IMG/VR virus record: IMGVR_UViG_3300005617_000023
Span: 1 to 34,523 of that record
Reading direction: 5' to 3' (one strand)
DNA from: a virus
DNA length: 34,523 nt
The notes below the pieces were generated by a model. It was not told where the DNA came from, did not search any database, and saw only the letters and a program-made list of their open reading frames with translations. This document shows positions 22,875 through 23,437 of the stretch, piece by piece (within the stretch, counting starts at the first letter, position 1; the number at the start of each line of letters is the position of its first letter). The position numbers were made by a program, and so were the translations under genes.

Positions 22875-23437
22875 TATTTGGCGCTAGCCCTGCTTTCAGG
22901 GAGCATGGGATAAACTTAGTGATGAGGCTATCCACTGGGCTAGCATAAATCTTTTGGGCTATTTTCCCTATATCTCAGTGATTGACCGCACTGTCTTACG
23001 TAAAGATATGTACGGAATAAGTATCGTCGCCCATTGTGCATACCAACTTGGACTTTTGGCTACACAAAACTGGTGGCCTATTTTCTCTAGGATAAGGAAG
23101 GCGCACCTATTACCCAAGTCACTTAATTAGCGTACTTTACAGGTACACGACTTTATTCAATATCGTCGGCCATAATTCTTGCCCTAACCGTGTTCTCATC
23201 GTAGCTGCCGTGGAGAACTCTACGCTATGCACTTGCATTTCGAGGCGTTACTCTCTCATCAGGCGCTTAATTTGACAGCCTAGACCTACCTATTCACTTA
23301 GGGCATGGGTAGGAAACGCTCTTAAATGGCTTCCTAGGTTTAACATACTTGGTCGGCACTCATACCAGAGCTTAAGTTGGCAGAGATATTCTAAAGTAAG
23401 TAACCAATAAACTTTCGCGCGTATCATCGGAAGCCAT
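22875..23437 (-). ncRNA. Candidate large structured non-coding RNA (about 560 nt)
   Basis: No ORF with a ribosome-binding site is visible on either strand in about 560 bp of a genome that otherwise has almost no gaps. GC is about 44% by count over 22921-23400, higher than in the flanking genes by eye. Paired arms include 23319-23334 with 23429-23444 (16 bp perfect), 23285-23290 with 23308-23313, 23192-23197 with 23213-23218, 23072-23079 with 23099-23107, 23046-23051 with 23114-23119 and 22883-22890 with 22937-22944. The minus strand is favoured because the genes on both sides run that way. Size and phage setting recall GOLLD and ROOL RNAs, but I cannot match a consensus. A decayed gene is the main alternative. 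Confidence 0.5.

Follow-up and report, generated by a model that had tools for sequence, protein, structure and literature searches.

The virus record IMGVR_UViG_3300005617_000023 of IMG/VR (34,523 nucleotides (nt), referred to at its full length as the window) raises the question of what is encoded at positions 22875-23437, a gene-free stretch which the initial annotation had put forward as a candidate large phage RNA, possibly of the GOLLD or ROOL type. The stretch is a head-to-tail array of at least five small, folded, minus-strand RNAs and not one large RNA. The units of such arrays belong to four or more families of structured RNA that have no Rfam entry and are found again in dozens of uncultivated phages. 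The comparative evidence for structure, as read from the sequences, lies far beyond chance expectation. The order of the units on the minus strand is D (u1), C (u2), A (M2), A (M3) and the tRNA-shaped u6, with the following positions:

22875..23444, minus strand: whole RNA array, within a minus-strand operon and without a conserved open reading frame (ORF)
23328..23435, minus strand: unit u1, class D; motif CGATGNNACGCGCGAWAGT within the closing stem GGCTTCC/GGAAGCC, which extends to 16 bp (23319-23444)
23181..23321, minus strand: unit u2, class C; hammerhead-like junction surrounded by the helices CCTACC/GGTAGG, GCTGTC/GGCAGC, GTTCTC/GAGAAC and GCCCTAA/TTAGGGC
23222..23266, minus strand: hammerhead-like core of u2 (GCGC-CUGAUGA-stem II-GAAA-stem III-UA-GCGU); predicted cleavage after UA, between 23226 and 23225
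23074..23172, minus strand: unit M2, class A (TGGCC-GACGATA-TT...GA-GAAAATA-GGCCA, then CCA); class A model R1, 47.3 bits, E 4e-11 (training-set member)
22955..23033, minus strand: unit M3, class A (TGGGC-GACGATA-CTTAT...ATAGG-GAAAATA-GCCCA); R1, 51 bits, E 4e-12 (training-set member)
22883..22944, minus strand: unit u6; 8-bp stem GCTAGCCC/GGGCTAGC, a central 6-bp arm, and an arm with a 7-nt loop stacked on the closing stem (from an inverted pair and the fold)

Organization of the array

The raised GC content (about 44%) noted in the initial annotation was reproduced: 44.4% for the stretch (44.2% over 22921-23400), compared with 38.1% for the whole window and 33.7% and 38.3% for the 1-kb flanks. 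The many inverted repeats described there amount to ten inverted pairs, namely the perfect 16-bp repeat with its 94-nt spacer, located at 23319-23334/23429-23444, and nine others of 8-17 nt. The 16-bp stem is, however, confined to unit u1 (7-bp closing stem plus 9 bp), and the region as a whole is not organised by it. The only ORFs in 22875-23437 are small (45-58 amino acids (aa)) and unconserved, and no homologues of them were found; a decayed gene was rejected, as homologous loci hold RNA arrays and no intact ORF. The minus-strand fold of the stretch had z = -2.58, with 2 of 100 shuffles equally good, which taken alone is modest evidence; the plus-strand fold had z = -1.80. Homologues of u1, u2, M2 and M3 with compensatory changes were found in other phages. 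The initial observation of a structured, gene-free stretch is confirmed. The proposal of a large phage RNA stood in part: covariation among homologues is present and supports a structured phage RNA, whereas separate units and the lack of an Rfam match speak against a single ornate RNA of the GOLLD or ROOL type.

Reading the minus strand beside that of the relative L003 (Sak4 84% identical) gave the repeated pattern ATGG[GC]CGACGATAC...GAAAATAG[GC]CC. A first scan of IMG/VR with CGACGATACN{30,60}GGAAAATARSCC returned 39 stretches, where a few would be expected by chance (rough own estimate), and a second pattern, in which the closing stem was mostly free, returned 24 stretches, five of them from new contigs. 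At several loci that were read, tandem units were closed by a stem of some 7 bp, with a GG start after TTTAT or AATTAT and a CC(A) end, and neighbouring units were separated by short A/T-rich spacers. Units in homologous loci are separate, about 60-215 nt long, and also occur alone, in other orders and between tRNA genes.

Searches with Rfam models (cmscan) matched no family in the window at the gathering threshold and gave no credible match, GOLLD and ROOL included, in 22700-23700 at E<=10; low-score matches in the stretch (atoC, OmrA-B, HOXA11-AS, group II intron) were judged to be chance. The 1-kb stretch had no blastn match in phage records, and the 16-bp stem, used as an exact pattern, had nine matches elsewhere, also attributed to chance. 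In L003, an Rfam cspA match coincides with an ORF for a CspA-like protein; a gene for a CspA-like cold-shock protein (12272-12484) lies within the array of L003, directly behind a class A unit.

Structured RNA families

Class A comprises 53 distinct units in IMG/VR phages. Its architecture consists of a closing stem (P1), a 7x7 internal loop (GACGAUA/GAAAAUA) in which 12 of the 14 positions do not vary, a second stem (P2) that begins with a closing pair followed by U.G, and a variable head; in the minimum free energy fold of M3, P1, the internal loop and P2 match those of the family. P1 is 98% paired, with both-side changes in four of five pairs; column pair 4/33 is CG in 44 units, GC in eight and AU in one. 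The first pair of P2 (13/24) is formed in 53 of 53 units by five pair types, and the second (14/23) is UG in 39, UA in seven and CG in seven (n=53). On the opposite strand, the U.G of 39 of the 53 units would read A.C, from which it follows that the minus-strand RNA is the functional molecule. Covariation was 0.456 versus 0.178 in shuffles (none of 500 as high) and at most 0.113 in slid-register controls; some columns were set by the search patterns (e.g., C5 and G24 in the first), while column 4 and neighbouring tandem copies were free. Near-identical heads (GCYGGTTAAACGCACAGCTAAGGCTGGGATGCGCGAAGGC) on two different contigs (L110 5781-5718 and L150 8071-8008) show that there are subclasses with conserved heads. 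A T-loop-like hairpin (GGTGNAAGTCC or GGTGCGAATCC) was seen in many heads (L095, L096, L124, L102, L123, L103, L127 and L110) and perhaps provides a second tertiary contact.

Class B was found in 30 stretches, none of them in the window and nine from contigs already found with class A. Its layout is GGCAATCG-CG-GCGUG-GACAGUGA-CACGC-[variable]-GCCGG-UGCAAUU-CCGGC-CGAUUGCC, that is, a tRNA topology with an 8-bp acceptor, a 5-bp D arm and a 5-bp T arm and with conserved D-loop (GACAGUGA) and T-loop (UGCAAUU). The variable part of about 40-160 nt lies between the D and T arms, in the place of the anticodon arm, and contains no conserved helix. Pairing was 98.4% over all cells, with both-side changes in 13 of 18 pairs and none of 500 shuffles as good; the members in L144 and L003 have wholly different acceptors that were not imposed by the pattern. 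The Rfam tRNA model (RF00005) did not match class B even at E<=0.5, and ARAGORN did not call the unit of L003. A tRNA-Leu-like unit in L129 (674-806) has intact D, variable and T arms and an anticodon arm apparently swapped for a longer structure; it is possibly an intermediate between tRNA and class B. One phage contig with a class B unit also carries an abiF RNA (L136 7698-7662, minus strand; RF03085, 46 bits).

The class A and class B models (R1 and R2) were run over 42 full array records: R1 matched in 32, R2 in 24 and both in 14, and neither had a match in 960 kb of other viral DNA. Locus L169, which was retrieved by class C only, contains a class A unit (E 3e-7) and a class B unit (E 2e-9), neither of them in the training sets. 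Because the two window matches of R1 belong to its training set, independent support comes from the pair statistics and not from the E-values of these matches. The class A pattern had no match in 84,980 species genomes, although the model found a longer-headed copy in a prophage. Four of the five class B pattern matches in bacterial genomes were rejected as chance, lying in apparently coding DNA with no class B unit there; class B had no match in annotated phages and one weak match, over 25 nt, in plasmids.

Class C homologues of u2 were found by blastn over the fetched loci in L097/L126 (84% identity over 168 nt; L097 E 1e-43), L111 (79% over 138 nt) and L147 (74% over 156 nt), and a pattern scan added L168/L169. 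Compensatory changes affect most helices, among them CCTACC/GGTAGG, GCTGTC/GGCAGC, GTTCTC/GAGAAC and the closing GCCCTAA/TTAGGGC, where L111 and L169 pair only after a manual shift of the alignment (GCTCC/GGAGC and GCCCCAC/GTGGGGC). Two of the helices of u2 are pseudoknotted. The core nucleotides CUGAUGA, GAAA and A15.1-U16.1 are invariant in five distinct homologues, and H17 is A or C, with the classical GUC in L111 and L169. Stem III fully covaries and stem II changes in L147; stem I has 4 bp in the window and is weak (two to three of four pairs) in L097 and L147. With stems I-III in place the core is complete and is termed hammerhead-like, and self-cleavage is predicted; neither the stretch in the window nor L169 had a match to the Rfam hammerhead models at E<=10.

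Class D, the motif CGATGNNACGCGCGAWAGT within a closing stem, is present in the window, L097/L126, L144 and L174, where the homologues have the exactly complementary stems GGCTCTC/GAGAGCC, GGCTTTC/GAAAGCC and GACTCTC/GAGAGTC, respectively. Most of the 15 pattern matches were unrelated viral genes, and only those with a closing stem and an array context were kept; L147 matches the motif, and no closing stem was found there. No homologue of u6 was found, for which reason this unit is tentative.

tRNA-like ends and interleaved tRNA genes

Each unit follows an A/T-rich spacer (TTTAT before GG), and its closing stem starts with GG, or with GC in the case of u2 and u6, and ends with CC-A-(CCA). U(-1) was found in 49 of 53 class A units and 26 of 31 class B units, A73 in 41 of 53 and 23 of 31, and an encoded CCA in 28 of 53 class A units; the ends carry the pre-tRNA features U-1, G1, A73 and CCA. 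True tRNA genes are interleaved in several arrays: class B, tRNA-Phe, tRNA-His and class A follow each other in L123 with spacers of 6-9 nt, tRNA-Pro, tRNA-Met and class B in L118, and tRNA-Trp and class A in L100, with similar mixtures in L111 and L139. No tRNA was detected in the window by the Rfam covariance model or ARAGORN. A tRNA-like gene with a 4-base anticodon (gtca) was called by ARAGORN in L129 (582-654), adjoining class A units.

Operon context

As initially annotated, the genes on both sides of the array are on the minus strand:

23438..23593, minus strand: small upstream gene with a cysteine-rich product of about 51 aa (MVSRCC...); a similar ORF is found in the same place in L003
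22706..22864, minus strand: downstream small gene (MEVKIKCRDCKK..., 52 aa); its ribosome-binding site comes right after the array
24759..25430, minus strand: Sak4-like single-stranded DNA annealing gene of the same operon (phrog_2872, E 6e-68)

The gene geometry and the sole terminator (22400-22378, the operon end; none inside the array) show a predicted cotranscription of the array with this operon. Two further small proteins of the window, 791-1162 and 1558-1770, are common to 18 and 14 array-bearing loci, respectively; a homologue of the latter, 76% identical, immediately follows the array of the Legionellales phage described below.

Phages and hosts

The podovirus connector PF12236 was found in only 10 of the 42 array records, which indicates that the arrays span phage types; a tyrosine integrase was found in one of 28 records. 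A class B unit (65 bits) lies on BMAG01000039.1 (L163/L164), a 36.5-kb contig with genes for terminase, portal, coat, Sak4 and ParA (own ORF reading). The contig comes from BBSC-SA01, a single-cell genome assigned to Legionellales bacterium UBA4722 (PMC7453286). Compared with window proteins, those of the contig show 76% identity over 70 aa adjoining the array and 50% for Sak4. This complete-looking podophage contig with ParA possibly represents a phage-plasmid, or a phage captured while it was infecting a single cell.

In one of 36 Legionellales genomes, class A is represented (E 1.2e-7), with a second GGCAATC unit next to it, in a prophage-like region that has RecE/RecT-like, integrase and tail-like genes and adjoins a citrate synthase gene. 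R1 had no match in 369 genomes of the class, with only 12 candidates scored per genome. Because class B occurs on a phage contig in a Legionellales single-cell genome and class A in a prophage of the order, the hosts of the phage cluster are likely to be Legionellales or close kin; a Legionellales-type host of the window phage itself is suggested by the shared genes. Few well-characterised phages are known for this order. A GGC(TAT/GAT/TCT) repeat run encoding a Gly-rich peptide was observed immediately upstream of the G045 prophage array (L165 1225-1493), and a similar GGC-triplet run at the start of the array-bearing contig L129 (1-170).

Proposed function

From the structure, which the comparisons establish, we infer processing and function. 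In the favoured reading, to which we give about even chances on sequence grounds, the stretch would be a polycistronic array of tRNA-like RNAs, excised by host tRNA maturation and acting in trans as mimics or decoys. The array would share its transcript with a phage operon in which recombination genes are also encoded, and host tRNA maturation would cut this transcript to stable small RNAs, with RNase P acting at the 5' end and either RNase Z or exonucleases at the 3' end, possibly assisted by the hammerhead-like core of class C. Such excision, by RNase P and the 3' maturation of tRNA, is probable. The units would not decode, since the tRNA ends are kept (in class B also the acceptor/D/T elbow) but the anticodon arm is absent; in trans they would occupy tRNA-binding host factors, for example defence enzymes that modify the acceptor end or cleave tRNA, no specific target being claimed. 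Such a role in trans as non-decoding tRNA mimics or decoys is put forward tentatively. That the arrays of Legionellales-type phages hold several undescribed non-decoding RNA families, processed like tRNA and serving as trans tRNA decoys against host defence enzymes, is more doubtful still.

Several observations weigh against the proposal of excised tRNA mimics. R2 had no match in the window, where u6 is the only unit with a tRNA-like outline. CCA is encoded in only three of 31 class B units, and recognition of class A, which has no T arm, by RNase P would rest on the stem and ends alone. Other roles in trans fit as well as that of a decoy.

An unlikely alternative is punctuation in cis, in which excision only cuts the polycistronic message and gives downstream mRNAs defined, stable 5' ends, with no role in trans. 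The position of arrays between genes of the same orientation, running straight into a ribosome-binding site, and the tRNA-like ends fit this explanation, but a single hairpin would suffice for it, whereas many elaborate folds (the invariant 7x7 loop, the D/T elbow, the pseudoknots) are conserved whatever the adjoining gene. Ligand- or protein-binding cis-regulators (riboswitch-like leaders), with class A as an aptamer, would account for an invariant internal loop that resembles a binding site between variable helices; tandem copies, varied downstream genes and the lack of an expression platform or terminator make them rather improbable.

A DNA-level element (recombination cassettes, or a replication or packaging site, with hairpins forming in single-stranded DNA) would be in keeping with the shuffling of units, the repeated spacers and the annealing genes (Sak4, RecT, RecE) that adjoin arrays at several loci. 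It is quite improbable, given conserved U.G wobble pairs that are strand-specific, an orientation equal to that of the adjoining genes and interleaved tRNA genes. Non-functional remains of a decaying phage tRNA cluster could explain why true and near-tRNA units share arrays (L111 5401-5481, L129 582-654), but invariant internal motifs and covarying stems across unrelated phages require selection, and the cores of classes A and C are no tRNA remnants, leaving this very improbable. The chance of a single large ornate RNA of a known type (GOLLD, ROOL or kin) is negligible: size, GC content, location in a phage and tRNAs nearby in relatives agree with it, but it is refuted for Rfam members at both thresholds used, and the units are separate and shuffled.

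Relation to known RNAs

GOLLD and ROOL are phage-borne, structured, noncoding RNAs of unknown function, often near tRNAs. The array is likewise phage-borne, structured and noncoding, but is composed of many small modular units instead of a single RNA of 500-800 nt and is unmatched in sequence and structure. With phage tRNA clusters (RF00005) it shares tandem small RNAs, tRNA-type ends, short A/T-rich spacers and interleaved true tRNA genes, whereas none of classes A, C and D is a tRNA and class B has the acceptor/D/T elbow without a recognisable anticodon arm. Theta ribozymes, which resemble the hepatitis delta virus (HDV) ribozyme, adjoin phage tRNA genes and were proposed to aid tRNA 3' maturation (PMC10879173); they are also self-cleaving-type RNAs tied to phage tRNA genes, but the class C core is of the hammerhead type, not the HDV fold, and occurs in other phages. 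Intergenic hammerheads are known from phages such as PaP3 and Bcep176 (PMC3088659). Class C shares with them the CUGAUGA...GAAA...UH core and three stems; it differs in that the core sits in a larger pseudoknotted RNA without an Rfam match and that stem I has only about 2-3 bp in two members. The tRNA-like structures of plant RNA viruses are also non-decoding RNAs with tRNA-shaped ends, but lie at genome 3' ends, unlike the free-standing tandem units in an operon of a double-stranded DNA phage. None of the phage RNAs among these accounts for classes A, B and D, or for the cassette organisation.

No description of such arrays was found in the literature searched, which did not cover preprints and subscription texts; the texts searched do not describe noncoding phage genes built as interchangeable cassettes with tRNA-like ends. 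The compact, well-defined class A offers an internal loop that is directly usable in the search for a binding partner. A set of virulent phages and one prophage linked to Legionellales are marked out by the conserved units, which, if the proposed function is true, would represent an RNA-based counter-defence in which the tRNA ends would be a shared packaging and the variable heads the payload.
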